The notes under the pieces: generated by a model | The model's input: the letters and a program-made list of their open reading frames with translations, nothing else | What the model was told of the DNA's origin: nothing | The model's database searches: none | In this document: positions 24,949 through 40,815 of the stretch, in pieces | Position numbering within the stretch: the first letter of the stretch is position 1 | Layout: each line of letters starts with the position of its first letter | Assembly (NCBI RefSeq): GCF_000243155.2 | Contig: NC_018017.1 | Span: forward strand, 930,001 to 994,000 | Source: Desulfitobacterium dehalogenans ATCC 51507 | Lineage (GTDB): Bacteria > Bacillota > Desulfitobacteriia > Desulfitobacteriales > Desulfitobacteriaceae | Direction of reading: 5' to 3' | DNA length: 64,000 nucleotides | Made by a program: the position numbers and the translations under genes

Positions 24949-25716
24949 ATGTCCGAGACTTTATTATGGGAAAAACAAAATGACGGTATAGCTTACGTAA
25001 TTATTAATAAACCAGAACGCAGAAATGCTATGGATGCTGATCTGATGGTAAAGATGGTTCAGGTTTTGGATCAGCTGGATCAGGATAAGGATGTCAGGGT
25101 CATCATTCTCAAAGGACAAGGGGATCATTTCAGTTCGGGCGGCGATTTAAAAGCAGGGGTTGGCGGTGAACCCACTGTTGAAAATTCCAGAGCGGCCTTA
25201 CAAAAATTTGTTTTTGCAGTAAGAAAGATACAAGAGATGGAAAAGCCTGTCATTGCTATGGTAAAAGGCTATGCCATAGGTGGAGGCATGAGTCTGGCCA
25301 TGGCTTGCGATATTGTTTTTGCGTCGGAAGACGCCAAATTCAGCTCTAATTTCCTCAAGGTAGGGATTACACCGGAAATGGGTGCTATGCTCTTGATGCC
25401 CTTGATGATGGGTGCTCAAAGAGCAAAAGAATTATGGTTTACGGGAAGAGTTATTGATGCGGCGGAAGCCAAGGAGTTGGGATTTGTTAACCGAGTCTGT
25501 TCTTCGGAAGAAATTGAAAGCGCTACCCGGGATTTTGCCACAGACTTAGCCCAAATGCCTGCTCTTCCGGTGAGAATCACCAAACGAATTACCAATTCAA
25601 CCCTGTTTAATTTATTGAACTCTGTGCTGGAAGCGGAACTGCAATCGACTCCTTTCTGTACCCAGACAGAAGAGCATAAGGCTTTAATTGAAGCGTTTAA
25701 AAACCGGAAAAAATAG
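24949..25716 (+). CDS. Enoyl-CoA hydratase/isomerase family protein, CaiD-like
   Basis: The 255-residue crotonase-fold protein would hydrate or dehydrate an enoyl-CoA. It has the CoA-binding and oxyanion-hole segments (HFSSGGDLKAG near residue 61 and GYAIGGGMSLAMACD near 104) and is about the size of E. coli carnitinyl-CoA dehydratase CaiD (261). A Glu in the TPEMGAMLLMP segment could serve in catalysis. AGGAGGTAA precedes the ATG. It is the first gene after a sigma-54 promoter and is followed by an MFS transporter in the same unit. CaiD-like function is inferred from the neighbouring CaiA, CaiB, CaiC and Fix homologues. Confidence 0.85.
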   Translation: MSETLLWEKQNDGIAYVIINKPERRNAMDADLMVKMVQVLDQLDQDKDVRVIILKGQGDHFSSGGDLKAGVGGEPTVENSRAALQKFVFAVRKIQEMEKPVIAMVKGYAIGGGMSLAMACDIVFASEDAKFSSNFLKVGITPEMGAMLLMPLMMGAQRAKELWFTGRVIDAAEAKELGFVNRVCSSEEIESATRDFATDLAQMPALPVRITKRITNSTLFNLLNSVLEAELQSTPFCTQTEEHKALIEAFKNRKK

Positions 25717-25747
25717 AAGTAAGTAATACATGCTGGGAGGAAGCAAT

Positions 25748-27325
25748 ATGACCAATGAACAGCTGAGCCGGAAATCTCCGTGGTTTTCATATCTGGGGTT
25801 ATTATTGGGAACTTTCACCATGATCGAGGCAATGGCCTTTCAAATTCCCGCTTTGCCGGTGCTGACGAAGGAATTTGGAGTCCCGGTAGCCACAGCAGCC
25901 TTGATCAGTCTATGCTATTATCTGACGGCTACCGTGTGCGGCCCTGTCTTTGGCAATATTGCCGATCAGATAGGCCGCAAACGCATTGCCATGATCGGTA
26001 TGATTATTTTTGCTATAAGTGAATTTATGGCTGCTTTTGCCACAAACTATCCCTTTTTCTTATTGGCCAGATTGTGTCAGGGAATTGGCGTGGCTGCTGT
26101 TCTCCCTGCCGGCCTTTCCTATGCCAGCTATTTATTTCCGCCCAACAAGCGGGGAATAGCGGTTGGAGTGTATACTGCCGTCGGGACCTTTGCTTCAGCG
26201 ATGGGTGGTTTTTTAGGCGGGATTTTGATTGCGAAATTCGGCTGGCAATCTCTTTATATTATAAGCGGCGTCTTAGCAGTCCTGGGCATTGCGCTGGTGC
26301 ATATAACGGTTCCCGAGACTCCCACTGCGGAGAGAAAGCCCTTTGATTATATCGGTTCGATCTTGCTTCTGCTTACCATAGGAACTTGGTTATCCCTTTC
26401 CGTACTGGTTGCCAATTTTGGCTGGGTATCACCCTATACCCTGGGTATGCTGGGTTTAGCCATTGTTTTTGCCATAAGTTTCTGGAATGTGGAGAAAAGA
26501 ACCAGTCACCCCTTTATGGACTTATCCATCCTTAAAAACCGCTACTTTGCCGCACCGATCCTGCTCTATTTCTTTATTGCTCTCTGCTCCCAGGGCTCCG
26601 TATTTACTAACTCCTACTTCGTTACAGCCAAACCGGGCTTAGGCACTGCCTATGTAGGCATTATGACGGGATCGATTTATCTTGCCGGAGCGGCAACATC
26701 GCTGCTCAGCGGCAAGTTGATTGATTCGTTTAAAATTAAAACGGTCTTGCTGATAGGAATGGGAACCTTTATCGCCGGTACGTTGCTTTATTCCCAGTAC
26801 ACAGTGGATACACCGTTTTGGTATATTGTACTGACTTTGGTGTTTATGTCCGGTTCTTTGTTGTTTATTGCCCCCGCCTGCATGAAAATGTCCATGTCCG
26901 CTGTTCCGTCGGAAAAGCTTGGCAGCGGCTCAGGAACTTATATTATGATTCGCGATTTGGGAAGTCCCACCGGACAAACGACCATGCTGGCTGCCTTTGG
27001 AGCGATTTCTGCCTCCTCCCTGGCGACAGAGATAGCTGCTGAGGCTCAGAATTCAGGAGTAAGCGAAGACATGATACCTGCCGTGGTGGAAGCGGGAAAA
27101 ACAGCCGGCAAAGTCATTGACCCGACCTTAGCAGATCATCTGGCCAAAATTGGGGTTAGCTTTCAGGATCTCTATGCCAAAGCAAATTTTGATGGAATGG
27201 TCATTGCGGTCAACCAGATGAGTACGATCATTATTGCTATAGCGGTAGCAGCATTTATAGTAGCTGTATTTGCTTTGCCGAATACCAACGGAAGTCCCAG
27301 TGGCCTTGACCATAGAAGCAAATAA
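25748..27325 (+). CDS. MFS transporter, DHA-like
   Basis: The 525-residue membrane protein has some 12-14 hydrophobic helices. The MFS loop motif between helices 2 and 3 reads GNIADQIGRKR, and RLCQGIGVAAVLPAG is the next conserved segment. A hydrophilic stretch of about 60 residues (near 425-485) precedes the last helix. The ATG at 25748 is preferred over one at 25730 because GGGAGGAAG lies between them. It is 31 bases after the hydratase gene, so it is probably co-transcribed from the same sigma-54 promoter. The substrate may be the acid used by the pathway, or its reduced product. Confidence 0.85.
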   Translation: MTNEQLSRKSPWFSYLGLLLGTFTMIEAMAFQIPALPVLTKEFGVPVATAALISLCYYLTATVCGPVFGNIADQIGRKRIAMIGMIIFAISEFMAAFATNYPFFLLARLCQGIGVAAVLPAGLSYASYLFPPNKRGIAVGVYTAVGTFASAMGGFLGGILIAKFGWQSLYIISGVLAVLGIALVHITVPETPTAERKPFDYIGSILLLLTIGTWLSLSVLVANFGWVSPYTLGMLGLAIVFAISFWNVEKRTSHPFMDLSILKNRYFAAPILLYFFIALCSQGSVFTNSYFVTAKPGLGTAYVGIMTGSIYLAGAATSLLSGKLIDSFKIKTVLLIGMGTFIAGTLLYSQYTVDTPFWYIVLTLVFMSGSLLFIAPACMKMSMSAVPSEKLGSGSGTYIMIRDLGSPTGQTTMLAAFGAISASSLATEIAAEAQNSGVSEDMIPAVVEAGKTAGKVIDPTLADHLAKIGVSFQDLYAKANFDGMVIAVNQMSTIIIAIAVAAFIVAVFALPNTNGSPSGLDHRSK

Positions 27326-27356
27326 TACAGAAACAGACCCATTTAAAAAGATTAAT

Positions 27357-27392
27357 CCGAGAAGCTGTGTGCCTTAAACCACAGCTTCTCGG
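27357..27392 (+). terminator. Terminator-like hairpin after the hydratase/MFS unit
   Basis: CCGAGAAGCTGTG (27357-27369) and CACAGCTTCTCGG (27380-27392) form a perfect 13-bp stem around a 10-base loop. There is no strong T-run, so termination may be partial. Confidence 0.65.
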
Positions 27393-27442
27393 CTATTCGG
27401 CATTCAGGAAATACGTATAAAGTAAACATGTTTTCTGTTGTG

Positions 27443-27482
27443 AAAGTGTTTGCATGAGACACTTTGACTGAACACTTTGTTT
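27443..27482 (+). promoter_or_regulatory. Upstream activating elements for the second sigma-54 promoter
   Basis: AAAGTGT (27443-27449) and ACACTTT (27459-27465) form an inverted repeat. GAACACTTTGTTT (27470-27482) is the exact reverse complement of 24713-24725 in the first promoter region. They lie about 90-130 bases before the -24/-12 element, as expected for an enhancer-binding protein. Confidence 0.65.
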
Positions 27483-27568: not shown

Positions 27569-27584
27569 TGGCATCATTCTTGCT
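27569..27584 (+). promoter_or_regulatory. Sigma-54 (-24/-12) promoter of the caiB-fixAB operon
   Basis: TTGGCATCATTCTTGCT has GG at 27570-27571 and GC at 27582-27583, a 12-base register. It lies about 55 bases upstream of the first CaiB-like gene. Confidence 0.85.
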
Positions 27585-27639: not shown

Positions 27640-28854
27640 ATGAAAAAGTCTGAGATTCCGAAATTTGGGAACCTGCAGGGATTAAAGGTCATTACATCCG
27701 GGTCGGCAATTGCAGGCCCATTTGCCGGGGCGCTCTTTGCAGAGCAGGGTGCTGAGGTTATTTACCTGGAAAATACGGCTGTTCCCGATATGTTTCGTAT
27801 GTTTGGAGATGTTTGGTCAAGCGAGCATAGAAATGAGAGAACCATGGCCTTGGATATTCAGTCTCCCGAAGGCCGGGAAATATTAGTCAAACTTGTCCAA
27901 TGGTGCGATATCCTGATTGAATCCTCCAAAGGAGGTACTTGGGCCAAGTGGGGGCTTACGGACGAATTTCTCTGGGGGATCAATCCCAAACTGGTCATCA
28001 CTCATGTTTCAGGTTTTGGACTGACTGGCGATCCGGACTACATCAGACGAGGATCTTTTGACCCTATCGGTCAGGCCTTCAGCGGCTATATGGCCATTAA
28101 TGGAGAACCGGAACCGGCCCCTCCTTATGCACCAAAACCCTTTACCGGGGATTATGTGACGGCGTTGAATACCACCTGGGCCACCTTGGCGGCACTCTAC
28201 CGGACCCAACAAACCGGGGTGGGGGAAAGTGTCGATGTCGCCCAGTACGAGTGCCTGGTCCGTATTCAAGGGAATTTTCTCCTGGAAGGAGTCAATTCCG
28301 GCAAACAACCGCCCCGTATGGGCAATAAAGATTTGAAATCCGCCCTGGAAAACGTCCAGAAATGCAAAGATGGCAATTACGTTATGTTGGCTTTAGGGGG
28401 AGGCGCAGTATTAAGGAGAGTTGAAAAGCTTTGGGGTCTTGACGGTGATCCGGACTTTCAGGAGCCTCATACGGTGATCTTCAAAGAGGATGGCCCCCGC
28501 GCTGAAAAATTCGTGAAAGCCGCCGTGGAATTCTGCCGTAGTCATACTGCCGAAGAAGTGGATCGCATTATGAACGAAAATCAAATCCCCTGCAGTATTG
28601 TCATGACCTATGACAAAATGCTGGATAACCCACAGTACAAAGCCAGGGAGACCATAACGGAATGGTATGACGAGATCAGCGGCCGCAAGGTTAAAGGGGT
28701 AGCACCCATTCCCAGGTTCAGGAATAACCCAAGCCAAATCTTCCGCAGCGGGCATACCTACGGTATGGATAACGAGGATGTGCTGAGTGAGTTCGGCTAC
28801 AGCGAAAATGAGATCAAAGCTTTCTATGAGAAAGGTGTTATCAAGAAAAAATAG
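27640..28854 (+). CDS. Class III CoA-transferase, CaiB-like (copy 1)
   Basis: This enzyme would move CoA between acyl-CoA product and free acid substrate, activating the acid without ATP. The 404-residue protein resembles E. coli CaiB throughout. It opens with IPKFGNLQGLKV and SIAGPFAG-like AIAGPFAGALFAE, and has KLVITHVSGFG. The catalytic Asp of family III is Asp171 in FTGDYVTAL. The C terminus keeps NNPSQIF and GMDNEDVL. AAAGGGGAAAG lies upstream of the ATG. It is first gene of a long operon behind a sigma-54 promoter. A second CaiB-like gene lies at 37943, so two acid/CoA pairs may be used. Confidence 0.9.
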   Translation: MKKSEIPKFGNLQGLKVITSGSAIAGPFAGALFAEQGAEVIYLENTAVPDMFRMFGDVWSSEHRNERTMALDIQSPEGREILVKLVQWCDILIESSKGGTWAKWGLTDEFLWGINPKLVITHVSGFGLTGDPDYIRRGSFDPIGQAFSGYMAINGEPEPAPPYAPKPFTGDYVTALNTTWATLAALYRTQQTGVGESVDVAQYECLVRIQGNFLLEGVNSGKQPPRMGNKDLKSALENVQKCKDGNYVMLALGGGAVLRRVEKLWGLDGDPDFQEPHTVIFKEDGPRAEKFVKAAVEFCRSHTAEEVDRIMNENQIPCSIVMTYDKMLDNPQYKARETITEWYDEISGRKVKGVAPIPRFRNNPSQIFRSGHTYGMDNEDVLSEFGYSENEIKAFYEKGVIKKK

Positions 28855-28901: not shown

Positions 28902-29672
28902 ATGAACATTATTGCATGCTACAAAATCGTTCCGGAAGAACAGGATATTGTGGTTGAGAAGGATCGCAGCTTGTCTTTCGCCCGGGCCGAATGGAAAATC
29001 GGGCAATATGACCTGAATGCCGTGGAAGCCGGGGTGGAAATTGCCGAAGCTGCAGGCGGCAAAGTCATGGCCTTAAGTATTGGCGGCAAGGAGTTGGATA
29101 ACTCCAAACTCAAGAAAGGGATTCTTTCCAGAGGCCCAGAGGAGCTTTATTTGGTCGTCGATGAGAAATTAGGGAATGCAGACAGCTATACAACGGCCCA
29201 GACCTTAGCTGCCGCCATCCGTAAAATCGGCGCCTTTGACTTGGTTATCTGCGGTGAAGGGTCCTCGGACTTATATGCACAACAGGTGGGAGCCCAACTG
29301 GGCCAGATGCTGAATGTCGCGACGATCAATGGGATCAGCAAAATGACACCAGATGGAGATCGATTGATTGCAGAGCGCACCCTGGAGAACGAGATTGAAG
29401 TACTGGAGATCCCCTTACCTGCGGTGATCTCGGTAACTACGGATATTAACCTGTCCCGGATTCCCAGCATGAAAAATATCCTGGCTGCCGGGAAGAAGCC
29501 GACGACAGTTTGGGATCTTACGGCCATTGGTATGACTGGTATTGATATTCCCACTGAAGTGGTGAGCACTCTGGCACCGGAACAAGCGGATCGCAAGAAG
29601 ATCATTTGGGAAGGCGAATCGGAAGAAGTCATTCAGCAATTGTTTGCGCATATTCGCAAAGAACTTCTTTAA
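28902..29672 (+). CDS. fixA: Electron transfer flavoprotein beta subunit, FixA-like
   Basis: FixA pairs with FixB to carry electrons on flavin/AMP cofactors. The 256-residue protein follows E. coli FixA closely: NIIACYKIVPEEQDI at the start, KIGQYDLNAVEA, LSRGPEEL, CGEGSSDLYAQQVG and the ETF signature region around IPLPAVISVTTDIN. The start at 28902 is supported by GAGGTGGGA just upstream and by alignment; the longer in-frame start at 28863 is less likely. It follows the CaiB-like gene by 47 bases and precedes fixB by 14. FixC and FixX are encoded at the end of the cluster. Confidence 0.93.
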   Translation: MNIIACYKIVPEEQDIVVEKDRSLSFARAEWKIGQYDLNAVEAGVEIAEAAGGKVMALSIGGKELDNSKLKKGILSRGPEELYLVVDEKLGNADSYTTAQTLAAAIRKIGAFDLVICGEGSSDLYAQQVGAQLGQMLNVATINGISKMTPDGDRLIAERTLENEIEVLEIPLPAVISVTTDINLSRIPSMKNILAAGKKPTTVWDLTAIGMTGIDIPTEVVSTLAPEQADRKKIIWEGESEEVIQQLFAHIRKELL

Positions 29673-29686: not shown

Positions 29687-30634
29687 ATGAGCATATTGAA
29701 AAAAGTTTGGATACTGGCAGAAAAACAAATAGGCTTAGGTCAGCTATGCGCAGGCGGACGCCAGCTGGGAGAGGAAGTCTCCGCAATTCTATGGGGAGAA
29801 AAGGAAGAGGCTGACAAAGCCATTGAGATGGGTGCGGATAAAGTTTATTGGCTAGGTACTCTCAGGCCGGAGACCCTTAGGGAAGATTATGTGGAGACTA
29901 TTCTGAAGCTGCTCCAAGAAGAAAAACCGGATGCTCTGTTGGTCCAGCCGACCAAAAGAGGAAAACTGATCGCCGGCCGTTTGGCAGCAGGGCTGGGGAC
30001 ATCTGCCCTGGTTGATGCAGTTGAGATCCTGACGGACGGAAATAAGGTTCAAATCCAGCACATGGTCTATGGAGGAGCGGCTTTCCGCACCGAGAGAATT
30101 CAGCCGCAAACAGCGATCATTACGGTTGGAACCGGGGTTTTTACTCCTCTTGCGGAAGATGCCGGACGTCAAGGCTCAATCATCAAGGTGGAATTTTCAG
30201 AACCCGCCGCTAAAATCAAGCTCCTGGAGAAAAAGAGCAAAGCAAGTTCAGAAGTCAACCTGAATGCGGCCAAACGGGTTGTAGGTATTGGCCGTGGCCT
30301 TGCTCAACAGGAAGACCTCAAGATGGTTGAAGAACTGGCCGGCCTGATGGAAGCTGAAGTGGGCTGTTCCCGACCTGTTGCTGAAGGAATGAACTGGCTG
30401 CCCAAAGAGAGGTATATCGGTGTATCCGGTGCTATGCTCAAACCCGATCTCTATCTGGCCTTAGGTATTTCCGGTCAGGTTCAGCATATGGTGGGAGTCA
30501 ATCAGGCCAAGGCCATCGTAGCCATCAATAAGGATAAAGCAGCACCGATTTTCAGCCAGGCCGATTATGGAATCGTGGGAGATTTTTATAAGATTCTTCC
30601 TTCCTTAATTGAGAAGTTTAAGGCAGAAAAATAG
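29687..30634 (+). CDS. fixB: Electron transfer flavoprotein alpha subunit, FixB-like
   Basis: FixB binds FAD and forms the electron-transfer flavoprotein with FixA. The 315-residue protein has FixB features: TKRGKLIAGRLAAGLG, HMVYGGAAFRTERI, then the C-terminal FAD domain with VGIGRGLAQQEDL, GCSRPVAEGMNWLP, GISGQVQHMVG and the terminal NKDKAAPIFSQADYGIVGD. The ATG at 29687 is chosen from alignment to FixB, with AAGGA 11 bases upstream. In carnitine-reducing enterobacteria, FixAB(CX) deliver electrons to the CaiA reductase; the same role is inferred here because the next gene is CaiA-like. Confidence 0.93.
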   Translation: MSILKKVWILAEKQIGLGQLCAGGRQLGEEVSAILWGEKEEADKAIEMGADKVYWLGTLRPETLREDYVETILKLLQEEKPDALLVQPTKRGKLIAGRLAAGLGTSALVDAVEILTDGNKVQIQHMVYGGAAFRTERIQPQTAIITVGTGVFTPLAEDAGRQGSIIKVEFSEPAAKIKLLEKKSKASSEVNLNAAKRVVGIGRGLAQQEDLKMVEELAGLMEAEVGCSRPVAEGMNWLPKERYIGVSGAMLKPDLYLALGISGQVQHMVGVNQAKAIVAINKDKAAPIFSQADYGIVGDFYKILPSLIEKFKAEK

Positions 30635-30673: not shown

Positions 30674-31825
30674 ATGGATTTTAGACTGACAGAAGAACAA
30701 GAATTACTGCTCGAAAGCCTTAGGGAAGTTATGGCCAGGGATTGTACAGAAGACTATATGAAAGAATGCTACGAAAAAGGCGAGCATCCCATGAAGTTCG
30801 TCCAGGCACTCATGGATAATGGTTTTGGGATGTTAGGAGTTCCGGAAGAACACGGCGGCACCCCGGTGGATAACCTGACCATGATGCTGGTTGCTGAGGA
30901 AATCACCAAGAACGGCGGTCCTCACTTTGTATTCGGACAAGCATTATCCATTGCCGATATGCTCCACTTTGGTTCCGAGGAGCAAATCGCCGATACCATG
31001 GCTGAAGTGCAAAGAGGCGGAGTGGCCTTCGTCTTAGGGTTTACAGAGCCTCAAGCTGGTTCCGACAGCAGTGCCGCTGCGACCACTTATACCCGCAAAA
31101 ACGGCAAGGTCTATATCAACGGCCACAAAACCTTCATGAGCGGAGCACTGCGGGCACCCTATATGCTCTGCCTGGCCCGCAATTCGGAAGAGGCCGGCAA
31201 TGCCGACAAACGCAACGCCTTTAGTATGTGGTGGGTTCCCATGAATGCTCCCGGCATTAAGATCGAAAAGCTGGAAAAGATCGGCTGGCATATGCAGGAT
31301 ACTTGTGAAGTCTACCTGGAAGATGTGGAAGTCGAAGAAAAAGATCTTGTCGGTGTGGAAGGCAATGGCTTTATGCAAGTCTTATACAACTTTGAGATGG
31401 AACGCTTGTTGATGGCGGCCTCAGTACTGGGCATGGCAGAGTGCGCTTTTGAAGATGCCGTCCGTTACGCCAACCAACGGGTGCAGTTTGGTAAAACGAT
31501 TGGATCTTTCCAGCTGATTCAAGAAAAACTCACCTTTATGAAAGCCAAAATTGAAAACATGAAAAACATGGTCTACAAATGCGCTTGGGAAGTGGACAAC
31601 GGACTTCCGGTACAAATCTCTTCGGCAATTGCCAAATTATATTGTGCACAAGCGGCCAATGAGGTCATTGACGATGCCCTGCAAATCATGGGCGGAATCG
31701 GTTACACCAAGGATGCCCGTATTTCCAGGTTATGGCTGGATGCCCGGGTCTTTAGGATTGGTGGCGGTACGGACGAGATCATGATTCACGCAGCGGGAAG
31801 AGCCATTTTAAAGCAATATAAATAA
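30674..31825 (+). CDS. Acyl-CoA dehydrogenase family reductase, CaiA-like
   Basis: In E. coli, CaiA reduces crotonobetainyl-CoA to gamma-butyrobetainyl-CoA with electrons from FixABCX. This 383-residue protein closely resembles CaiA, including CAFEDAVRYANQRVQFGK, IGSFQLIQEKL and the start MDFRLTEEQEL. It has the flavin segment FTEPQAGSD. The usual acyl-CoA dehydrogenase catalytic YEG near the C terminus is replaced by IGGGTDEI, similar to the SGGSDE I recall in CaiA, so both depart from ordinary dehydrogenases. GGAGGGAAAG precedes the ATG. It is 39 bases after fixB. The substrate could be crotonobetainyl-CoA or another enoyl-CoA. Confidence 0.9.
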   Translation: MDFRLTEEQELLLESLREVMARDCTEDYMKECYEKGEHPMKFVQALMDNGFGMLGVPEEHGGTPVDNLTMMLVAEEITKNGGPHFVFGQALSIADMLHFGSEEQIADTMAEVQRGGVAFVLGFTEPQAGSDSSAAATTYTRKNGKVYINGHKTFMSGALRAPYMLCLARNSEEAGNADKRNAFSMWWVPMNAPGIKIEKLEKIGWHMQDTCEVYLEDVEVEEKDLVGVEGNGFMQVLYNFEMERLLMAASVLGMAECAFEDAVRYANQRVQFGKTIGSFQLIQEKLTFMKAKIENMKNMVYKCAWEVDNGLPVQISSAIAKLYCAQAANEVIDDALQIMGGIGYTKDARISRLWLDARVFRIGGGTDEIMIHAAGRAILKQYK

Positions 31826-31987: not shown

Positions 31988-33229
31988 ATGAGTAAACAAT
32001 CGACTCGTCCATGGCTTGTATTTCTATCTTTAGCCCTATTGTTCTTTGCCGCGTTGGGAATGCTTGGGAATACCAATGGTCTGTATCTGACTCCGGTTTC
32101 CAAAGAAATGGGTTGGAGCAGGACCGATGCATCCTGGTATTTGACCATTTATATGCTGACCATGGCTTTAACCCAGCCCATTGCCAGCAGACTTCTTTAT
32201 AAAGTGAATTCAAAAGTTTTGCTCTTCGTCAGTATGACCCTTGTGTGTGCTGCTACCGGTGCTGCGTCTCAGTTCCAAACCGTCATGGCCTGGAACATCT
32301 CCGGTGTTCTCATGGGTCTGGGCTATTCTGTCATTATGTACCTGACCCTTCCGGTCATCATCAGCAACTGGTTCAACAAAAAGACCGGTATGGTTTTAGG
32401 TATCGCCCTGGCCATTGGAACCCTGGGCTCAGCCATAGCCAACCCTGTTGCCGGAATGCTGATTACGGAGTATGGATGGAGAACCGCCCGCCTCGCCATG
32501 TCCATCGCGGCCTGGGTCATTGCCATCCCCGGTATTCTCTTATTTGTTAATTTTAAACCTGCCGATGTTGGTCTGAAACCTTATGGTTATGAAGAAGGAG
32601 CCTCAGGGCAGCAGACGAAAGCCGCTGTATCTCTGAAAGGGGTATCTGCCGCTGATTCCCTGAAATCCCCTGCACTATATATGGTTATGTTCATAGCTTG
32701 TGCGGTGGTCTTGTATTCCTCCATGAACACTCAGATTCCGGGATATGCTAGTTCAATCGGGCTGGCGACTGCTTTTGGGGCCTATGCCATGACCATTCTG
32801 AACCTTGCCAATATGGGCGGGAAAATCTTCTGGGGCTGGTTAACGGACCGCAAAGGCTTCCTTCCCTCTATGGTTGCGGCTCTGTCCTGCGGCATAGCAG
32901 GGGTCTTGATTATTTTGGCCGGGGGCTCCAATGTCAGCGTATTCTATGCCGGTTTGGTTTTCTTTGGTATTTGTTTTTCCTCACTGACCGTTATGCTGCC
33001 TCTGATTGTCAAAGGGATCTTTGGCGAAAAAGATTATGGAAAAATCTATGCCAACGTTACCTTGGTGCAGCAGTTAATGGCCGCCTCAGCTGCAATTATC
33101 TATGGAAGAATCTTCGATATCACTCAAAGCTTTGTCTTTGCCTGGCAGATGAATATTGTGACCCTGGCCATTGCTATCCTGATGCTCTTCGGAGCCGTTA
33201 AGGTCGGCAAAAAGCTGGTCCATGTATAA
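31988..33229 (+). CDS. MFS transporter, OxlT/monocarboxylate-like
   Basis: The 413-residue protein has about 12 hydrophobic helices in two halves, with a central hydrophilic loop at about residues 195-225. The first half reads GLYLTPVSKEMGWSRTDASW and the third helix region has LMGLGYSVIMY, features of the oxalate/formate and monocarboxylate MFS branches. AAAGGAAGGG precedes the ATG. It is in the middle of the cai/fix-like operon, where E. coli would have the BCCT carrier CaiT; no BCCT protein is present here. Acid uptake or acid/product exchange is plausible. Confidence 0.85.
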   Translation: MSKQSTRPWLVFLSLALLFFAALGMLGNTNGLYLTPVSKEMGWSRTDASWYLTIYMLTMALTQPIASRLLYKVNSKVLLFVSMTLVCAATGAASQFQTVMAWNISGVLMGLGYSVIMYLTLPVIISNWFNKKTGMVLGIALAIGTLGSAIANPVAGMLITEYGWRTARLAMSIAAWVIAIPGILLFVNFKPADVGLKPYGYEEGASGQQTKAAVSLKGVSAADSLKSPALYMVMFIACAVVLYSSMNTQIPGYASSIGLATAFGAYAMTILNLANMGGKIFWGWLTDRKGFLPSMVAALSCGIAGVLIILAGGSNVSVFYAGLVFFGICFSSLTVMLPLIVKGIFGEKDYGKIYANVTLVQQLMAASAAIIYGRIFDITQSFVFAWQMNIVTLAIAILMLFGAVKVGKKLVHV

Positions 33230-33394: not shown

Positions 33395-35452
33395 ATGTCA
33401 CAATTTCCATTATTAAGTTCTCCCATCAAATTAGGCAGTATGCTTCTGAAAAACCGCATGATAACTACATCCATGTCCCCGGGCCATGACTATACCAATG
33501 AAGAAGGACAGCCGACTCTGAGATTTTATAATTACCTGGAGGAAAGAGCTGCCGGCGGAACGGCCTTAATTTGCCAAACCGTTTGCTTTTATCCCAGACT
33601 TAAGAGTCAGTTGGATCATCTCCATCCTTTGCCCCTGGGCTATGCGGAGGAACATCTCCCCCATCTGAGCAAGATGGCTGAGGTTGTGCATAAACATGGG
33701 GGGCTGATCGTTGGCCAGCCTTATGCCGTGCATGACTGGAAGTCCGCGCCGGAAGAGAAGGAAGAATACTGGGGCCCATCCACCTTATCTATCTCCAAGC
33801 ATAGTCCCAAACCCATGACGAAAGAGCATATACGGATTTTCAAGGAAAATATCGTCCAATGCTCTGTTACGCTGCAAAAAGCCGGCTGGGACGGGGTGGA
33901 GGTCATGGCAGGTGTCGGTGGCATTTTGAACCGCTTTATGTCCCTGGCGACCAACGATCGGACGGATGAATACGGCGGCAGCTTGGAAAACAGATGCAGA
34001 CTGACGGTTGAAGTTATGGCAGAGATCAAAAAAGCCTGCGGGGATGATTATCCTATCATTGTCCGCTGGTCCCCGGTGGATTTTATCAAAGGCAGCTTAA
34101 CCATGGAAGAGTCTTTACAGATTGTGGAGATCCTGGAAAAGGCGGGCGCTGTTTTGCACAACTTAGCTCCGGGCTGGCATGAAACTTCCGTACCCTTAAC
34201 CATTAAGGATGTGCCGGAAGGGCATTGGTCCTGGGTTTCCGAAAAAATCAAATCCGTAGCCAAAGTACCGGTGGCCACCGCCTATAGAAATACAGATCCT
34301 TTTAATATGGAAGAAATTCTGGCGAAGGATAAGGCCGACGTGATCGCAGGCCTGAGATACAATATTGCCGACCCTGAATTTGCCAAAAAAGTCATGGAAG
34401 GCAGACCGGAAGACATTAACAAATGCATCTGCTGCTGCCGCTGCCTGGATGACGTCATCAGCCAGGGAAAACCTTTGAATTATTGCGGAGTGAATCCCCG
34501 CTTGGGAGAGGAATTGGAAAAACCTCTTGCCCAAGCGAATAAGACCAAGAAGGTCATGGTCATCGGCAGTGGGCCGGGGGGACTGGCGGCAGCTGTTACT
34601 GCAGCCCAAAGAGGGCATAAAGTGACGATCTACGAGCGGGGACCCCGTTTAGGAGGCTGTTTGGTCATGAGTGCCATCTTCAGCCCGACCTATGATCGCC
34701 TGAACACCTATTATAAAACCCTGCTCAAGAAACATCCTGAAATTAAAGTCAATTTTAATACTGCCGTTACCCCTGATCTGGCAGCCCGTGAAAAACCCGA
34801 TGCAGTCGTTGTGGCCGTCGGGGGACATCCGATTGATCTGAAGGTACCGGGAGCGGAAGGCGGGAATGTGGTCAAATCCCATGACTTCCTGGAATTGCTC
34901 AATGGCAAGCCTCCCCAAAAACCGGGGATAATGAATAAAATTATGTATAACTGCGGTTCTGTCTTCTTGAAGTTTTTCTATACCCCGGATTTAGCCCGTA
35001 CCTTCATGGGCAGATTCCCCTGGCCTCTGGGCAAGAAAATTGCCATCATCGGCGGCGGTTTGCCGGGCTGTGAGCTGGCCAAAGAAATGATGCATTATGA
35101 CCGGGATCTTGTAATCATCGAAGAAAAAAAGAAAATTGGTCATGATGTGGGCGGCAGTGACCGTTTCCATATTGTTCCAGTCTTTAAGAAATCCCCCCGG
35201 GTAGAGATGGAGACCCTGACAAAAGTAAAGGCCATCACCAGAGCAGGAGTTAAGGTCGTTCATGAAGATGGCTCAGAGACATTCCATCAAGCCAATACAG
35301 TGGCGGTAACTTTGGGCTTTGAAGAGAACATGGAGCTGGCGGAAGCCATCAAGGGCAAAGTTTCCGAAGTCTATGCCGTAGGAGACTGCAGCAGTCCTGC
35401 CCGTATGGCTGATGCGACCAAAGCAGGCTACAAAGCGGCTTGCCAAATCTAA
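33395..35452 (+). CDS. NADH:flavin oxidoreductase, FadH/old-yellow-enzyme type with Fe-S and FAD domains
   Basis: This three-part enzyme has 685 residues. It has an FMN TIM barrel (about 1-340; NDRTDEYGGSLENR is conserved) and a 4Fe-4S motif at about 350 (CICCCRC then YCGVNP). A C-terminal NAD(P)H/FAD part has two Rossmann motifs (VIGSGPGGLAAA and AIIGGGLPGCE). This is the layout of 2,4-dienoyl-CoA reductase and trimethylamine dehydrogenase. The usual HxxH of OYE is VEVMAGVGGIL here, closer to the FadH form. The Cys cluster has extra Cys residues and could bind the cluster in a non-standard way. It is not part of the E. coli cai cluster and may reduce an unsaturated acid or acyl-CoA in this pathway. 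Confidence 0.88.
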   Translation: MSQFPLLSSPIKLGSMLLKNRMITTSMSPGHDYTNEEGQPTLRFYNYLEERAAGGTALICQTVCFYPRLKSQLDHLHPLPLGYAEEHLPHLSKMAEVVHKHGGLIVGQPYAVHDWKSAPEEKEEYWGPSTLSISKHSPKPMTKEHIRIFKENIVQCSVTLQKAGWDGVEVMAGVGGILNRFMSLATNDRTDEYGGSLENRCRLTVEVMAEIKKACGDDYPIIVRWSPVDFIKGSLTMEESLQIVEILEKAGAVLHNLAPGWHETSVPLTIKDVPEGHWSWVSEKIKSVAKVPVATAYRNTDPFNMEEILAKDKADVIAGLRYNIADPEFAKKVMEGRPEDINKCICCCRCLDDVISQGKPLNYCGVNPRLGEELEKPLAQANKTKKVMVIGSGPGGLAAAVTAAQRGHKVTIYERGPRLGGCLVMSAIFSPTYDRLNTYYKTLLKKHPEIKVNFNTAVTPDLAAREKPDAVVVAVGGHPIDLKVPGAEGGNVVKSHDFLELLNGKPPQKPGIMNKIMYNCGSVFLKFFYTPDLARTFMGRFPWPLGKKIAIIGGGLPGCELAKEMMHYDRDLVIIEEKKKIGHDVGGSDRFHIVPVFKKSPRVEMETLTKVKAITRAGVKVVHEDGSETFHQANTVAVTLGFEENMELAEAIKGKVSEVYAVGDCSSPARMADATKAGYKAACQI

Positions 35453-35483: not shown

Positions 35484-36263
35484 ATGAAGGCAATTCTTAG
35501 TGATTTATTAGCGGAACAATCCCTGGTGGATACCTTGGTGTCTGACTTAAGTGAGGAACAGTGGCTGAAACCCCTGCCCGTAGAAATGTGGAATATTAAA
35601 GATGCCATTATTCATATTGCATTCTTTGATTATGCAGCCAACAAGCTGATGAGCGGTGAAGCGGAAGACCTGGTGAAGCTGGCCGATGCTGAGTCAGGTC
35701 AGGATCAATATGTCAGAGCGACAAGCTTTCATCACCTGACCGGAGCTGAAGTCCTAAGCTGGTGGCGGGAAGAACGTACACGGATGGCAGCTTCTTTTTA
35801 TGAGAAAAACCCCAAAGACAGGATACCCTGGGCCCCAGGGCTGCCTATGTCGGCCAAGTCACTGGCATCTGCCCGCTTAATGGAGCTGTGGGCTCACTCT
35901 GTGGATATCTATGACGCTTTGGGACTGGAGCCGGTGGTTCGGGAGCGGATTACCAGTACCCTGTTCTTATCCTGGCAAGCCAGACCTAATGCCTATCGGA
36001 TCAATGATTTGGAAATGCCCGCTACTCCCATTTATCTGGAGCTTATCCTTCCCTCCGGGGAGATCTGGGCCAAAGGAGAGCCAAGCGCAGAAAACAGGAT
36101 TAAGGGCAGTGCCAAAGACTGGGCTCTCGTGGCCATTCGCCGCCGGAACTGGATGGACACGGATTTGGAAGTCGTGGGAGAAGAAGCCCGGCGCTATGCT
36201 TCGATCGTTCAGACTTATGCAGGATGGGCCGACCCGGCACCGGCAGCAAAACGACAAAGGTAA
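35484..36263 (+). CDS. DinB/maleylpyruvate-isomerase-like metal-binding protein (TIGR03084-like)
   Basis: The 259-residue protein looks like the TIGR03084 branch of the DinB/MDMPI superfamily. It has a four-helix-bundle N-terminal half with potential metal ligands in IIHIAFFD (near residue 48), TSFHHL (near 86) and ELWAHSVDIYDALG (near 139). A C-terminal half with beta-rich character follows. The ATG at 35484 follows AGGAGGAAG. The gene is 31 bases after the flavoprotein and 59 before the ligase, so it belongs to the operon. The chemical role is unknown; family relatives act on thiol adducts or thioesters. Confidence 0.75.
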   Translation: MKAILSDLLAEQSLVDTLVSDLSEEQWLKPLPVEMWNIKDAIIHIAFFDYAANKLMSGEAEDLVKLADAESGQDQYVRATSFHHLTGAEVLSWWREERTRMAASFYEKNPKDRIPWAPGLPMSAKSLASARLMELWAHSVDIYDALGLEPVVRERITSTLFLSWQARPNAYRINDLEMPATPIYLELILPSGEIWAKGEPSAENRIKGSAKDWALVAIRRRNWMDTDLEVVGEEARRYASIVQTYAGWADPAPAAKRQR

Positions 36264-36322: not shown

Positions 36323-37891
36323 ATGTATCCGATGAACGTAGGGAACTTTCTGACCCTGAATTCAGCCAGATACCCTGACAAAATTGCCCTTGTCTGCAAG
36401 GACGAGCGCTTAACGTATCAAGAATTGAATTGCAGGGTAAACGCCCTGGCTCATGCATTCCTGGATCTCGGCATTGGCAAGGGGGATAAGATCGGCTATC
36501 TTTTTCCGAACTCCATCGAAATTGTCGAGTTATTCTTTGCCATTGCCAAGATCGGTGCCATTGCCGTGCCCCTCAATCATCGGCTGGTATCCAGAGAAAT
36601 AAAATGCCTGCTGGACTCAGTGGAATGTGATGTTTTTGTCTACAGCCGGTTGTATGATGGGCCGGTAAGTGAAGTAAAGGGCAGCTTCAGGACGGTAAAG
36701 CATATTATTCGCCTGGGAGAGCCCGCCCCTGGTGAATATTCCTTCGAGAAACTGCTGGAGTATGGCAATACCAGTGAACCGGATATTGCTGTTGACCGCC
36801 GGGATTTATTCCGAATTCAGTTCACCGGAGGGACCACAGGGCGTTCCAAAGGAGTTATGCGCACCCACGAGGCTGACCTCTTCCAGACGATTGGGGTCAT
36901 GACCTCCAATAAAATGGGAGCCAGCTCGGATGAGGTGGTGCTGACCCAGTCCCCCTTGCATCATCAGGGCGGGATAACCTGGATGCTTTGTGTTATGGCT
37001 ACCGGTGCGCAATTTGTTATTTGCGACGGATTTGATCCGGTAGAGATCCTGAGGCAGATTCAGAAAGAACGGGTAACCTATATGCTGCTGTTGCCGCCGA
37101 GCACCTATCTGCGCTTAATCGATGCACCGGCTTTTGGAGACTATGATGTGAGCTCGGTCAAAGTCGTGCATACTTCCGCAGGAGGTACCTCTCCTGCCAT
37201 TGTACAGAAGATGGTTGAGGCCTTTCCCAACTGTGAAGTGTATTACGGCTGGGGGCAAACCGAGACGGGAGCAGGGACTGTTCACCGGATCACCAGGGAA
37301 ATGGCTTTGCATCACCCGGAGAAGACCCAAAGCGTAGGAAGACCGATGCCCTTTTTCCAACTGAGAATTGTGGATGAGGCAGGAAAAGATGTTCCCCAAG
37401 GTGAGGTGGGAGAAGGGATTGCCAAAGGACCGGCTATCTTTTCAGGCTACTACAAGCAACCGGAGTTAACGGACGAGACCATCGCTGATGGCTGGACACG
37501 TACCGGGGATATGATGAGGCAGGATGAGGAAGGCCTCTATTATATGGTGGATCGGAAAAAAGACATGATAAAAACCGGGGGCGAGAATGTTTTCGCCCAG
37601 GAAGTGGAAGCCGTCATTCGCAAACACCCCGCGGTTTTGGATTGCTCGGTGATTGGGGTGCCTGACAAAACCTTTGGGGAGGCCGTCATGGCCGTCATCA
37701 AACTCAGGGCGGGATACACCGCAGCGGCGGAAGACATTCAGGAACACTGCAAAAGGGATTTATCCAGCTATAAAAAGCCGCGCTATGTGGAGTTTCTCGA
37801 TGAGTTTCCCGTGGATAGTGCCGGCAAGATTCAGAAATTCAGACTCAGAAAAAAATACCGGGGAATCTACGGACATCTTATTGAATCCTGA
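36323..37891 (+). CDS. Acyl-CoA ligase (AMP-forming), CaiC-like
   Basis: This enzyme activates a carboxylic acid to its acyl-CoA using ATP. The 522-residue protein has the AMP-binding motifs FTGGTTGRSKGV (near residue 170), YYGWGQTETG (near 305), GWTRTGD (near 390) and the C-terminal catalytic Lys context SAGKIQKFRLRKKY. Size matches E. coli CaiC (517). The ATG at 36323 is chosen because AAAGGAGA lies upstream and the earlier in-frame ATG at 36224 lies inside the preceding gene. It likely primes the cycle by making the first CoA thioester, after which the CaiB-like transferases recycle CoA. Confidence 0.9.
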   Translation: MYPMNVGNFLTLNSARYPDKIALVCKDERLTYQELNCRVNALAHAFLDLGIGKGDKIGYLFPNSIEIVELFFAIAKIGAIAVPLNHRLVSREIKCLLDSVECDVFVYSRLYDGPVSEVKGSFRTVKHIIRLGEPAPGEYSFEKLLEYGNTSEPDIAVDRRDLFRIQFTGGTTGRSKGVMRTHEADLFQTIGVMTSNKMGASSDEVVLTQSPLHHQGGITWMLCVMATGAQFVICDGFDPVEILRQIQKERVTYMLLLPPSTYLRLIDAPAFGDYDVSSVKVVHTSAGGTSPAIVQKMVEAFPNCEVYYGWGQTETGAGTVHRITREMALHHPEKTQSVGRPMPFFQLRIVDEAGKDVPQGEVGEGIAKGPAIFSGYYKQPELTDETIADGWTRTGDMMRQDEEGLYYMVDRKKDMIKTGGENVFAQEVEAVIRKHPAVLDCSVIGVPDKTFGEAVMAVIKLRAGYTAAAEDIQEHCKRDLSSYKKPRYVEFLDEFPVDSAGKIQKFRLRKKYRGIYGHLIES

Positions 37892-37942: not shown

Positions 37943-39175
37943 ATGGTAACAAGAGCAGAAATCCCTCATTTTGGCCTGTTATCCGGTGTAAAAGTCGTTC
38001 ACAATACCGTTTCTATTGCCGGCCCTTTTGCGGCGGAGCTCTATGCCGAATATGGGGCGGATGTCATTTGGATCGAAAATGCCAAGGTTCCCTGTATGAG
38101 CCGTGTAGCCACCGGCAATGCCTGGCAGCAGGACCGCCGCAATCAGCGGAATCTTTCTATTGATATATCCCTTCCCGAGGGAAAAGAAATATTCCTGAAG
38201 CTGATGGAAGATACGGATGTTTTTATTTCAGCAGCCAGGGGCGGGCAGTACGAAAAAATGGGCCTGGGAGATGAAGTGCTCTGGGAGCGAAATCCCCGCC
38301 TGGTTATCGTAAAGATTTCCGGTTTTGGGCAAACCGGTCTGCCGGACTATATGAACCGGCCCAGTTATGATCCCATCGCTCAGGCTTTTGGCGGCTATAT
38401 GGCTATGAATGGATTTCCAGGGATGCCTTCCATGCCCACTAATCCCTTAACTGCTGATTATATGAGCGCTTTGTTCGCCTTCGGAACCTCTGTAGCGGCT
38501 GTCATGAAAAGCAGGGAAACAGGCCGGGGGGAAAGCATTGATTTAGCCCAATATGAAGTCCTGATGCGCACTCAGTCCCGATATCCCATGGATTTTCTGG
38601 AACAGGGGATTCCCTTTGTTAAAGAGGGCAGCCATAGTGCATATTTTGCCGGCTATGGGACTTATAGCTGTCTGGATGAAAAAGAAGTCTATATGCTTTA
38701 TTTAGGTGCGGGAGTGCTGAAAAGAGGTCTGCCTTTTATGGGTATCGAGTTCGGTACGGAAAAAATCCCGTCCAGTACAAATCTTCTCTACCTTTCTTCC
38801 TCTGAAGGACAAGTTTTGGAGGAAAAGATTAAAGCTTTCTGTCAGTCCCATACAGCAGAGGAGGTCGAGAAAGCCTTCTTAGCCAATGGCGTGCCTTGTT
38901 CCAGAATTATGGATTACAACGATTGCCTTAAGGACCCCCAGTATGTGGCCCGGGAAGTGTTTACCCAGTGGAAGAAAGCCAATGGGGAACCTATAAGGGG
39001 AGTCAACATTTTTCCTAAATTTAAAAACCACCCTGCTAAAATCTGGCGGGGAGCTCCCAATATAGGCATGGACAACGAAGATATTCTGACGGATCTGGGG
39101 CTCTCTGAAGAGCAGATTAAAGAATTATATGCCAAAGGAGTCCTGACCCAAAGAGATTATATAAACAATATCTGA
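37943..39175 (+). CDS. Class III CoA-transferase, CaiB-like (copy 2)
   Basis: The 410-residue protein is a second CaiB homologue, about as close to E. coli CaiB as copy 1. It has IPHFGLLSGVKVV, SIAGPFAAELYAEYGADVIWIEN and the catalytic Asp172 in LTADYMSALFA. The C terminus is very CaiB-like: FPKFKNHPAKIWRG and GMDNEDIL. GAGG lies 8 bases before the ATG at 37943; the ATG at 37937 is too close to that site. Copies 1 and 2 differ well beyond recent duplication, so they may use different acids or recycle CoA at different steps. Confidence 0.9.
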   Translation: MVTRAEIPHFGLLSGVKVVHNTVSIAGPFAAELYAEYGADVIWIENAKVPCMSRVATGNAWQQDRRNQRNLSIDISLPEGKEIFLKLMEDTDVFISAARGGQYEKMGLGDEVLWERNPRLVIVKISGFGQTGLPDYMNRPSYDPIAQAFGGYMAMNGFPGMPSMPTNPLTADYMSALFAFGTSVAAVMKSRETGRGESIDLAQYEVLMRTQSRYPMDFLEQGIPFVKEGSHSAYFAGYGTYSCLDEKEVYMLYLGAGVLKRGLPFMGIEFGTEKIPSSTNLLYLSSSEGQVLEEKIKAFCQSHTAEEVEKAFLANGVPCSRIMDYNDCLKDPQYVAREVFTQWKKANGEPIRGVNIFPKFKNHPAKIWRGAPNIGMDNEDILTDLGLSEEQIKELYAKGVLTQRDYINNI

Positions 39176-39238
39176 AGCAGAGAAGCATCAAAAGATGCCG
39201 GTGATTGGCAATGAGTAAGATGCAAAGGGGTGTAAGCA

Positions 39239-40531
39239 ATGTCAGAGGATAAATTCGATGCAATAGTCGTCGGAGGCGGGATCGCCGGAACAGTAGCTGC
39301 TTATTTGCTGGCTAAGGAAGGATTGGAAGTCATCCTTGTAGAACGGGGCAATTATGCGGGCAGCAAAAATATGACAGGGGGGCGGATCTATAGCCATAGC
39401 CTGGAAAAGATCATGCCGTATTTTGCCCGGGAAGCTCCCGTCGAACGCAAAATTACCAGAGAAAAAATCAGCTTAATGACCGAAGAAAGCAATGTTACTC
39501 TGGATTTCTATTCTTCCCTGCTGGGAGTGCAGGGCAGCGATTCTTATTCCGTTTTGAGAGGGGTCTTTGACCAGTGGCTGGCCGAAAAAGCTGAAGAAGC
39601 CGGTGTCCAAATTATACCGGGTATCCGGGTCGATGATTTAATCCTTCGTGAGGGGAAAGTCTGCGGTGTGGTTGCAGGGGAAGATGAACTGGAGGCTGAT
39701 ATCACAATTCTCGCCGATGGTGTCAATTCTCTCTTGGCTCAGAAATTAGGATTCCGGGGAGAGTTAGCGACGCACCATGTCGCCGTGGGAGCGAAAGAAA
39801 TTATTGAATTACCGTCTCGGGTCATTGAAGAGCGTTTTAACTGCAACGGCAATGAAGGAACGGCCTGGTTGTTTGCCGGGTCCCCCTCTGACGGGCGTGT
39901 GGGCGGTGGATTCCTGTATACGAATAAATCGAGCATTTCCCTGGGAGTAGTCACGACGTTAAGCGACGTGATCAAGGGAAACAAAACAGTACCGCAAATG
40001 TTGGAGGATTTTAAACAACACCCGTCTATCCAACCGCTCATTAAGGATGGAAAGATGATCGAGTATTCCGGTCATCTTGTACCGGAAGCCGGTTTAGCCA
40101 TGATCCCAAAGATTGTTGGGAATGGAGTTTTAGTCGTCGGAGATGCGGCAGGATTCTGCATCAATTTAGGTTATATGGTACGCGGGATGGACTTTGCCGT
40201 GGCATCGGCTGAATGTGCAGCGAAAGCTGTCCTTAAGGCCAAAGAAGCCCAAGATTTCAGTGAGGGATACCTTCAATGTTACCAAGGCTTATTGGATCAA
40301 AGCTTTGTCATGCAGGACTTAAAACACTATAAGGATTTCCCCCATTTCTTGGAGGACACTCCGAGAATCTTCAATGGATATCCGAAAATGGCCACCGATT
40401 TGTTGGCGGATCTGTTTGTGGTCAAAGGAGAACCGGCACAGCCTCTAAGAAAAACCATTATGCAGCATGTGAGCAAGATAGGACTGCTAAACCTTGCCAA
40501 AGACGGCTGGAAGGGGGTGCGTTCGCTATGA
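39239..40531 (+). CDS. fixC: FixC-like flavoprotein (ETF-quinone oxidoreductase-like)
   Basis: FixC is the FAD protein that works with FixX and the FixAB flavoprotein. The 430-residue protein has an N-terminal FAD Rossmann motif (VVGGGIAGTVAAYLLAKEG), GSKNMTGGRIY, and the later FAD motif GVLVVGDAAGFCINLGY. Size agrees with E. coli FixC (428). AAGGGGTG precedes the ATG. It overlaps fixX by ATGA. In FixABCX systems electron bifurcation links NADH oxidation to quinone and ferredoxin reduction; whether bifurcation occurs here is not shown by the sequence. Confidence 0.93.
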   Translation: MSEDKFDAIVVGGGIAGTVAAYLLAKEGLEVILVERGNYAGSKNMTGGRIYSHSLEKIMPYFAREAPVERKITREKISLMTEESNVTLDFYSSLLGVQGSDSYSVLRGVFDQWLAEKAEEAGVQIIPGIRVDDLILREGKVCGVVAGEDELEADITILADGVNSLLAQKLGFRGELATHHVAVGAKEIIELPSRVIEERFNCNGNEGTAWLFAGSPSDGRVGGGFLYTNKSSISLGVVTTLSDVIKGNKTVPQMLEDFKQHPSIQPLIKDGKMIEYSGHLVPEAGLAMIPKIVGNGVLVVGDAAGFCINLGYMVRGMDFAVASAECAAKAVLKAKEAQDFSEGYLQCYQGLLDQSFVMQDLKHYKDFPHFLEDTPRIFNGYPKMATDLLADLFVVKGEPAQPLRKTIMQHVSKIGLLNLAKDGWKGVRSL

Positions 40532-40815
40532 GTCAGGTTAACGTCGATCAGAAGCTTGGGGTCAATAAGTTCCATGTGGATGAAGAGAACGCCCATATTG
40601 TCATAAAAGAGGGGAATATCGACCGGGCGGAATATCGCAAATTGGTCCTGGCCTGCCCTGCAGGACTATATACAATCAATGAAAGCGGCAATATTCAGTT
40701 CGACTACGCCGGGTGTCTGGAATGCGGCACCTGCCGGGTGCTTTGCGGTAAAACCCTCCTCGAAAAGTGGGAGTTTCCGCTGGGGACCTTAGGTGTGGAA
40801 TTTAGATATGGATAA
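40528..40815 (+). CDS. fixX: Ferredoxin-like protein FixX
   Basis: The 95-residue protein is the same size as E. coli FixX. It has the cluster motif CLECGTCRVLC near residues 64-74 and an upstream Cys in LACPAGLY, giving the Cys ligands of a ferredoxin-type 4Fe-4S cluster. Its start overlaps the fixC stop by ATGA, so the two are coupled. It is the last gene of the cai/fix-like operon. Confidence 0.93.
   Translation: MSQVNVDQKLGVNKFHVDEENAHIVIKEGNIDRAEYRKLVLACPAGLYTINESGNIQFDYAGCLECGTCRVLCGKTLLEKWEFPLGTLGVEFRYG

Follow-up and report, generated by a model that had tools for sequence, protein, structure and literature searches.

What does a cluster of carnitine-reduction-like genes do when it carries neither CaiT nor CaiE? 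The question is raised by a 64,000-nt stretch of the Desulfitobacterium dehalogenans ATCC 51507 genome (herein referred to as the window; positions 930,001 to 994,000 of NC_018017.1, the single contig of 4,321,753 bases that makes up the reference genome), which encodes about fourteen genes on its + strand at window positions 24949-40815. The set found in this soil anaerobe recurs in gut and other anaerobes and looks like a system for the respiration of an unsaturated organic acid. We propose, with about even confidence, that it carries out a sigma-54-induced, coenzyme A (CoA)-dependent, menaquinol-linked anaerobic reduction of one unsaturated (conjugated or ring-unsaturated) acid and releases the reduced acid. 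Sequence comparison establishes the gene set, its conservation, its active-site patterns and the presence of promoter and activator-site matches, and the cluster is real and conserved, probably a sigma-54-controlled acyl-CoA reduction system, which an earlier sequence-only reading of this DNA had recognized in part.

Gene Content of the Cluster

That reading described homologs of CaiA, CaiB, CaiC, CaiD, FixA, FixB, FixC and FixX encoded together, and all of them are intact open frames that family scans place in the expected families. It was also right that CaiT and CaiE are absent from the cluster (a genome-wide search gave no match to the CaiE family NF002967, and the two BCCT carriers of the genome lie at 3.70-3.71 Mb, about 2.7 Mb from the cluster, with none inside it) and that fixAB is separated from fixCX by exactly six genes, which encode the acyl-CoA dehydrogenase (ACAD), the second major facilitator superfamily (MFS) carrier, an Old Yellow Enzyme (OYE)-type flavoprotein, a TIGR03084 protein, the ligase and CaiB2. 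The features of the cluster, with electron-transfer flavoprotein abbreviated as ETF, are:

24949..25716, + strand, crotonase of the isomerase type (ECH_1; active-site pattern)
25748..27325, + strand, MFS1, long MFS carrier (Pfam MFS_1, 1.7e-48)
27640..28854, + strand, CaiB1, family-III CoA-transferase (PRK03525, 377 bits, below the cut-off of 413)
28902..29672, + strand, FixA (ETF beta), YdiQ type (PRK12342, 412 bits, above the cut-off of 338)
29687..30634, + strand, FixB (ETF alpha) with HMVYGG (family scan; bifurcation Arg replaced by His)
30674..31825, + strand, ACAD of the YdiO type, proximate enoyl-CoA reductase (PRK12341, 686 bits, above the cut-off of 537)
31988..33229, + strand, MFS2, oxalate/formate-antiporter (OFA)-like (best NCBIfam matches to L-lactate MFS and OFA models, all below cut-off)
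33395..35452, + strand, OYE/FadH-type flavoprotein with FMN, 4Fe-4S and FAD domains (family scans, PDB relatives)
35484..36263, + strand, TIGR03084 protein, metalloenzyme resembling mycothiol-dependent maleylpyruvate isomerase (MDMPI) (325.8 bits, above the cut-off of 247.95)
36323..37891, + strand, CaiC-like AMP-forming acyl-CoA ligase (AMP-binding, 7e-81; 29% identity to E. coli CaiC)
37943..39175, + strand, CaiB2, family-III CoA-transferase (PRK03525, 424 bits, above the cut-off of 413; 44% identity to E. coli CaiB)
39239..40531, + strand, FixC, ETF:quinone-oxidoreductase-like flavoprotein (59% identity to YdiS, 56% to E. coli FixC)
40528..40815, + strand, FixX, ferredoxin-like subunit (4 bp overlap with fixC; 65% identity to YdiT, 63% to E. 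coli FixX)
40914..40946, + strand, intrinsic-terminator-like hairpin and T run closing the cluster (read from the sequence)

Active Sites of the Crotonase, Flavoprotein and TIGR03084 Protein

Aligned crotonases of such clusters hold Ser or Ala, Phe and Glu at positions 115, 135 and 143 (window numbering) in 25 of 25 sequences, the window protein having S115, F135 and E143; the equivalent residues in E. coli are E, E, G in the hydratase PaaF, E, E, D in CaiD and T, F, D in PaaG. The first two of these positions we take to be the catalytic Glu pair of the hydratase, and both Glu residues are gone from the window protein. The cluster crotonases thus match the isomerase PaaG and not a hydratase, so that the CaiD-type chemistry of the sequence-only reading is not supported, and a crotonase of this kind should not dehydrate carnitine.

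These residues bear on the possibility that the cluster respires carnitine or crotonobetaine as the E. coli cai genes do, with a substituted carrier. CaiB2 does exceed the L-carnitine CoA-transferase cut-off, FixABCX, ACAD, ligase and crotonase are all in the cluster, and two BCCT carriers are encoded elsewhere in the genome; however, CaiB1 falls below the CaiB cut-off, the ACAD scores 436 bits against the CaiA model PRK03354 (cut-off 540) and is closer to YdiO, CaiT is missing from the cluster and CaiE from the genome, and the OYE and TIGR03084 proteins have no role in a carnitine pathway. We rejected the carnitine pathway on its crotonase residues, ACAD type and carriers, and hold it to be highly improbable. 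What the comparisons do support is the broader proposal of an apparent anaerobic acyl-CoA reduction system built from CaiA/CaiB/CaiC/FixABCX-type proteins and not serving carnitine.

The OYE flavoprotein keeps the active-site His of FadH (His262) in 27 of 27 sequences, and the position of the FadH active-site Tyr, a residue with a catalytic role, is Gly (Gly176) in the same 27. Its Cys residues 344, 347, 350 and 364 (window numbering) are invariant, and its closest relatives in the PDB are 6qkg 'NCR', presumably 2-naphthoyl-CoA reductase, and the 2,4-dienoyl-CoA reductase 1ps9. The TIGR03084 protein has no PDB sequence match at E values up to 1; its AlphaFold2 model (pLDDT 93) has, at high confidence, a fold like that of MDMPI, with a Foldseek match to the maleylpyruvate isomerase structures 2nsg (E 1.8e-6) and 2nsf. 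H44, E134 and H138 are invariant in 26 sequences, and we assume that they correspond to the zinc ligands H52, E144 and H148 of maleylpyruvate isomerase.

The Dehydrogenase and Its Probable Electron Path

The idea of a cai core is not supported by the dehydrogenase, which is 58% identical to YdiO versus 46% to CaiA by BLAST and passes the YdiO but not the CaiA cut-off. The accompanying FixA is of the YdiQ type: it is about 50% identical to either YdiQ or E. coli FixA, with the higher BLAST score to YdiQ, and FixB, FixC and FixX are likewise nearer to the Ydi proteins than to the E. coli Fix proteins by BLAST, with FixB reaching 326 bits against the YdiR equivalog PRK11916 (cut-off 528). The function of YdiQR is described as not known in the excerpted text of PMC9329746.

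The sequence-only reading had suggested electron bifurcation. According to the excerpts of PMC10734219, bifurcation by Thermotoga maritima EtfABCX requires the Arg of RPXFGG, and RXGV and GXXSPTXV are further motifs of group-2 ETFs. In our alignment the window FixB has HMVYGG where RPXFGG aligns, with Arg replaced by His, and FixA has FARA in place of the missing RXGV; of the third motif, PTEV is kept. E. coli FixB has lost the same Arg (HMVYGG), and YdiR reads HRMYGG. Among the 13 locus rows of the FixB alignment, RPAFGG occurs in one only, the second ETF of a Hungatella metagenome-assembled genome (MAG; locus L003), whose FixA partner has RAGV, as does the FixA of the near-identical L004. 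This second FixA/FixB pair (L003, approximately 13372-15300; RAGV and RPAFGG) lies beside a pair of the non-bifurcating type.

The replacement of the bifurcation Arg by His makes bifurcation unlikely in the window cluster, and we rejected it as the default on the FixA and FixB motifs. The corresponding hypothesis, in which FixABCX or FixAB couples NADH oxidation to the reduction of an enoyl-CoA and ferredoxin as in the Acetobacterium caffeyl-CoA reductase CarCDE, draws on the PDB entries closest to FixA and FixB, namely the bifurcating ETF complexes 6fah (CarD/CarE), 7qh2 and 7koe; however, the CarD/CarE matches are distant (E 1e-26 and 1e-40), both motifs are altered as in E. coli FixB and FixA, and FixCX points to quinone, which leaves this hypothesis improbable. 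FixC and FixX group with ETF:quinone oxidoreductase in family scans and BLAST, and we infer that menaquinol would supply the electrons, which FixCX and then FixAB would pass to the dehydrogenase.

The same proteins could also run in reverse, oxidizing a saturated or ring acid (e.g., toward aromatization) and passing electrons through FixABCX to menaquinone and then to another acceptor, and an ETF:quinone-oxidoreductase-like FixC normally feeds quinone. On the other hand, the cluster resembles known or proposed reduction systems such as cai, its two CoA-transferases fit the release of a transformed acid and not its breakdown, and enzymes for further breakdown are absent: open frames and family scans gave no thiolase or 3-hydroxyacyl-CoA dehydrogenase within 24949-40815, and thus no route of carbon-carbon cleavage is encoded there. 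We regard oxidation as unlikely.

Predicted Regulation by Sigma-54

The activator gene that diverges from the cluster, and the promoters, were missing from the sequence-only reading. The regulatory features are:

22519..24525, - strand, sigma-54-dependent activator (enhancer-binding protein) with a Fis-type helix-turn-helix (Pfam Sigma54_activat, 6e-66; HTH_8)
24700..24725, no strand assigned, predicted activator site, an inverted pair of AAACAAAGTGTTC with 2 mismatches in the second arm
24803..24818, + strand, predicted sigma-54 -24/-12 promoter TGGCATGAGTTTTGCA of the first transcription unit (11/12 consensus; also in L038)
27357..27392, no strand assigned, hairpin CCGAGAAGCTGTG/CACAGCTTCTCGG between the two units (read from the sequence)
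27470..27482, - strand, predicted activator site, exact 13-mer AAACAAAGTGTTC (exact copy in L038)
27569..27584, + strand, predicted sigma-54 promoter TGGCATCATTCTTGCT of the second transcription unit (10/12 consensus; also in L038)

The first predicted promoter (24803) precedes the crotonase gene and the second (27569) that of CaiB1; across both strands, the window holds six sigma-54 sites that match at least 10/12 of the consensus. Only two exact copies of the 13-mer exist in the 4.32-Mb genome; both belong to the cluster, one some 80-90 bases upstream of each promoter. If two mismatches are tolerated, the window holds 4 copies versus 1.81 expected, a count reached by 13 of 100 shuffles and thus not significant, and we therefore place weight on the exact copies and their position. 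A genome-wide search for further activator sites gave only matches with one mismatch, with control counts of the same order. Locus L038 belongs to a second species of the genus and keeps two copies, one of them exact and the other near.

The 34 related loci (some overlapping or near-identical) contain 76 sigma-54 sites matching at least 11/12 of the consensus, versus 5.6 expected from first-order resampling; 42 are perfect, and for 55 of the 76 a cluster gene starts nearby. The cluster at L040 (genome G006) encodes the dehydrogenase twice, in closely related copies (88% and 83% identity to that of the window) that are each preceded by a sigma-54 site. RpoN occurs in 71 of 149 Coriobacteriia genomes, so its presence is not special in that class; in all five Coriobacteriia genomes with a TIGR03084 match above cut-off, rpoN lies within about 1.2 kb of a TIGR03084 gene. 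Several Eggerthellaceae clusters carry their own rpoN near the activator (L118, L119 [G534], L006, L012-L014, L020-L022, L120 and L121).

Conservation across Genomes

Scanning 84,980 species genomes for the dehydrogenase returned 22 loci, an undercount because the scan recognizes only exact occurrences of one of six peptide patterns. They belong to Peptococcaceae, Hungatella and Oscillospiraceae MAGs, Actinomycetales and Propionibacteriaceae MAGs, Eggerthella, Gordonibacter, Slackia, Adlercreutzia and others. The survey of gene order that had been suggested as a check thus finds the same set repeatedly and nearly gene-for-gene in L038 (91-98% identity; 84% for a regulator fragment), and such recurrence argues that the cluster is not a chance assembly. 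All five core genes (ligase, ACAD, OYE, crotonase and TIGR03084) occur together in 19 of the 22 loci, spanning Bacillota and Actinomycetota. Taken singly, dehydrogenase, TIGR03084 and ligase are present in all 22; 20 loci encode OYE and 19 the crotonase, 17 have an MFS carrier, 15 a CaiB-type transferase and 14 an activator homolog, and in 21 TIGR03084 comes directly after the dehydrogenase. The two loci that lack OYE (L008 and L018, also without crotonase) end at a contig edge, and the L011 crotonase was seen in a first annotation pass and is uncounted in the final one.

The two MFS carriers, the FadH-type flavoprotein and the DinB-like protein (the TIGR03084 protein) that had been described as additions are present as claimed; however, with the flavoprotein in 20 and TIGR03084 in 22 of 22 loci, the latter two belong by their distribution to the core, and the cluster is something other than a carnitine system with additions.

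In a phylogeny of 33 dehydrogenases, the 31 cluster-encoded sequences form a single clade (99/97) that excludes YdiO and CaiA. Gut Bacillota and Eggerthellaceae supply 18 rows that group together (100/100), suggesting transfer between phyla. A search for more YdiO-type dehydrogenases in 391 Clostridia genomes returned one, the seed itself. TIGR03084 exceeds its cut-off in 7 of 82 genomes of the window's own class, and the six places examined all have cluster genes (one apparently on the contig of L001); in Coriobacteriia it does so in 5 of 149 genomes and in Actinomycetes in 139 of 345. The Actinomycete proteins are only about 27-38% identical to that of the window, and no OYE-ACAD module was found in the 30 Actinomycete loci read (two from one genome), 14 of which include a gene for AtuA, of acyclic terpene utilization (among them L091, L093, L095, L098 and L122). 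These neighborhoods hint at branched enoyl-CoA chemistry without settling the substrate.

A small or aromatic enoate, which the sequence-only reading tentatively drew from the carrier type, may or may not follow from the MFS carriers; other clusters of this kind have CitMHS/DASS-like carriers. The second species of the genus (G003) also has a further, diverged copy of the whole system (L039 with L154) that contains two CitMHS-like carriers and a chemoreceptor-like protein, perhaps for chemotaxis to the substrate.

In the open-licence PMC literature, judged mostly by titles and the starts of abstracts, we recognized no description of this cluster, and the part of that literature searched had no mention of TIGR03084. 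Term searches of two D. hafniense papers found no mention of carnitine or acyl-CoA in the genome paper (PMC3306737) and no ETF or ACAD entries that could be matched to the cluster in the proteome paper (PMC9888536).

A Proposed Pathway and Its Strength

We hypothesize that the substrate would be imported by one MFS carrier and that the CaiC-like ligase would prime the system with a first CoA thioester, after which CaiB1 and CaiB2 would hand the CoA of the product on to new substrate, and each turnover would cost no ATP; priming by ligase and exchange by transferase would match the logic of cai. The OYE flavoprotein, with NAD(P)H, would reduce a conjugated, possibly ring, double bond, the PaaG-type crotonase would shift the double bond that is left until it is conjugated with the thioester, and the YdiO-type dehydrogenase would reduce the shifted bond with electrons delivered by the menaquinol-FixCX-FixAB path, without bifurcation. 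Together, OYE, isomerase and enoyl-CoA reductase would fully reduce a conjugated diene. TIGR03084 may catalyze a zinc-dependent step, perhaps a cis-trans or double-bond isomerization, and the product would leave by the second carrier. The direction, electron donor, order of steps and role of TIGR03084 given here are those that we infer.

Several observations weigh against this proposal. FixC is found in 13, FixA in 10, FixB in 9 and FixX in 9 of the 22 loci (several of them cut off), so that FixABCX is less fixed than the five-gene module; the second ETF of the Hungatella MAG, with its bifurcating motifs, indicates that electron supply is not uniform; the OYE proteins, without the FadH Tyr in all 27 sequences, may catalyze a reaction different from that of FadH; and ACAD, ETF and FixCX would also fit the oxidation of an acid with electrons passing to menaquinone.

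One more specific route would reductively dehydroxylate a cyclic plant acid with several hydroxyl groups, of the quinate or shikimate kind, through cyclohexadienyl-CoA intermediates. E. coli ydiOQRST adjoin ydiM, ydiN, ydiB (quinate/shikimate dehydrogenase) and aroD, an OYE, an isomerase and an ACAD would suit alternating water loss and reduction, and some related clusters have as neighbors a carboxylesterase (L015, with a homolog in L019), SnoaL-like proteins (L013, L016, L017 and L152) or a short-chain dehydrogenase (L153). However, no quinate gene turned up within the window cluster or next to it, the E. coli neighborhood is adjacency only, YdiO lies outside the clade of cluster ACADs, and the SnoaL, short-chain dehydrogenase and esterase neighbors are each a minority and not of the Bai type by NCBIfam; this route does not seem likely to us.

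More broadly, we tentatively entertain, as a doubtful extension of menaquinol-linked acid reduction, the respiration of a conjugated dienoic or ring-unsaturated acid (e.g., a cyclohexadienoate derived from shikimate or quinate, or a different plant dienoate); OYE, PaaG-type isomerase, YdiO-type dehydrogenase and zinc-dependent TIGR03084 isomerase would then work on CoA thioesters one after another. Dehalorespiring soil Bacillota and gut Eggerthellaceae would have this pathway in common, which in the latter comes with a sigma-54 gene of its own, and it could provide a function for the orphan E. coli YdiOQRST. If right, the cluster would be a conserved anaerobic electron sink so far unassigned in soil and gut bacteria and an entry to two orphan families, TIGR03084 and E. 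coli YdiOQRST; the local sigma-54 activator would offer a ready handle on the substrate, through the acids that induce the two promoters.

Neighboring Genes

Two paralogous metallo-beta-lactamase (MBL)-fold hydrolases (about 323 aa; 21436-22407 and 47364-48335) flank the region, and homologs adjoin the ligase gene in two related clusters (L155 and L041); they are possibly a thioesterase or lactonase of the pathway. Downstream, 41145-45778 encodes a molybdopterin oxidoreductase (860 aa), an iron-sulfur subunit and an NrfD-like membrane protein (named by eye), preceded by a sigma-54-like site at 41060 (11/12). We rejected this operon as part of the cluster on the intervening terminator-like hairpin and its absence from beside the cluster in L038. 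Elsewhere in the window, a sigma-54-type activator lies directly before a 746-aa formate-dehydrogenase-like molybdopterin oxidoreductase (10356-14378; named by eye), and 49761-54683 encodes a 1640-aa secreted-looking protein that resembles alpha-2-macroglobulin-like proteins (judged by eye).

Comparison with Known Systems

The bai operon of bile-acid 7-dehydroxylation combines a ligase, a BaiCD-like OYE, a CaiB/BaiF-type transferase and an MFS carrier, as the window cluster does, and SnoaL or short-chain dehydrogenase genes beside some related clusters add to the likeness. In contrast, the window OYE scores far below the BaiCD cut-off (328 versus 825), and to our knowledge neither ACAD/FixABCX nor TIGR03084 is part of the bai operon. 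The bbu cluster of Emergencia timonensis (gamma-butyrobetaine use), as presented in the excerpts of PMC8364193, shares an ACAD-like enzyme and two class-III CoA-transferases; unlike the window cluster, its six genes include a BCCT carrier, a ferredoxin and a thioesterase and, in the same excerpts, no OYE, crotonase, TIGR03084 or FixABCX.

E. coli cai/fix (anaerobic carnitine reduction) shares a CoA ligase, a CaiB-type transferase, an ACAD, a crotonase and FixABCX, and the bifurcation Arg of FixB is lost in both systems. The window cluster differs in lacking CaiT and CaiE, in a crotonase of the isomerase and not the hydratase type, in its conserved OYE and TIGR03084 proteins, and in a sigma-54 activator in place of CaiF.

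The E. coli ydi locus (ydiMN, ydiB-aroD, ydiF, ydiO, ydiQRST and fadK) has no annotated OYE, PaaG-type crotonase, TIGR03084 or family-III CoA-transferase. Its YdiF is annotated as an acetate-CoA transferase and has no BLAST match among the window proteins, the window ligase is only 27% identical to FadK, and its regulator YdiP is presumably of another type than the window's activator. Nevertheless, the ACAD, FixA, FixB, FixC and FixX of the window are all nearest to Ydi proteins by BLAST score, the YdiO and YdiQ equivalog cut-offs are both exceeded by window proteins, and MFS genes lie nearby in ydi too.

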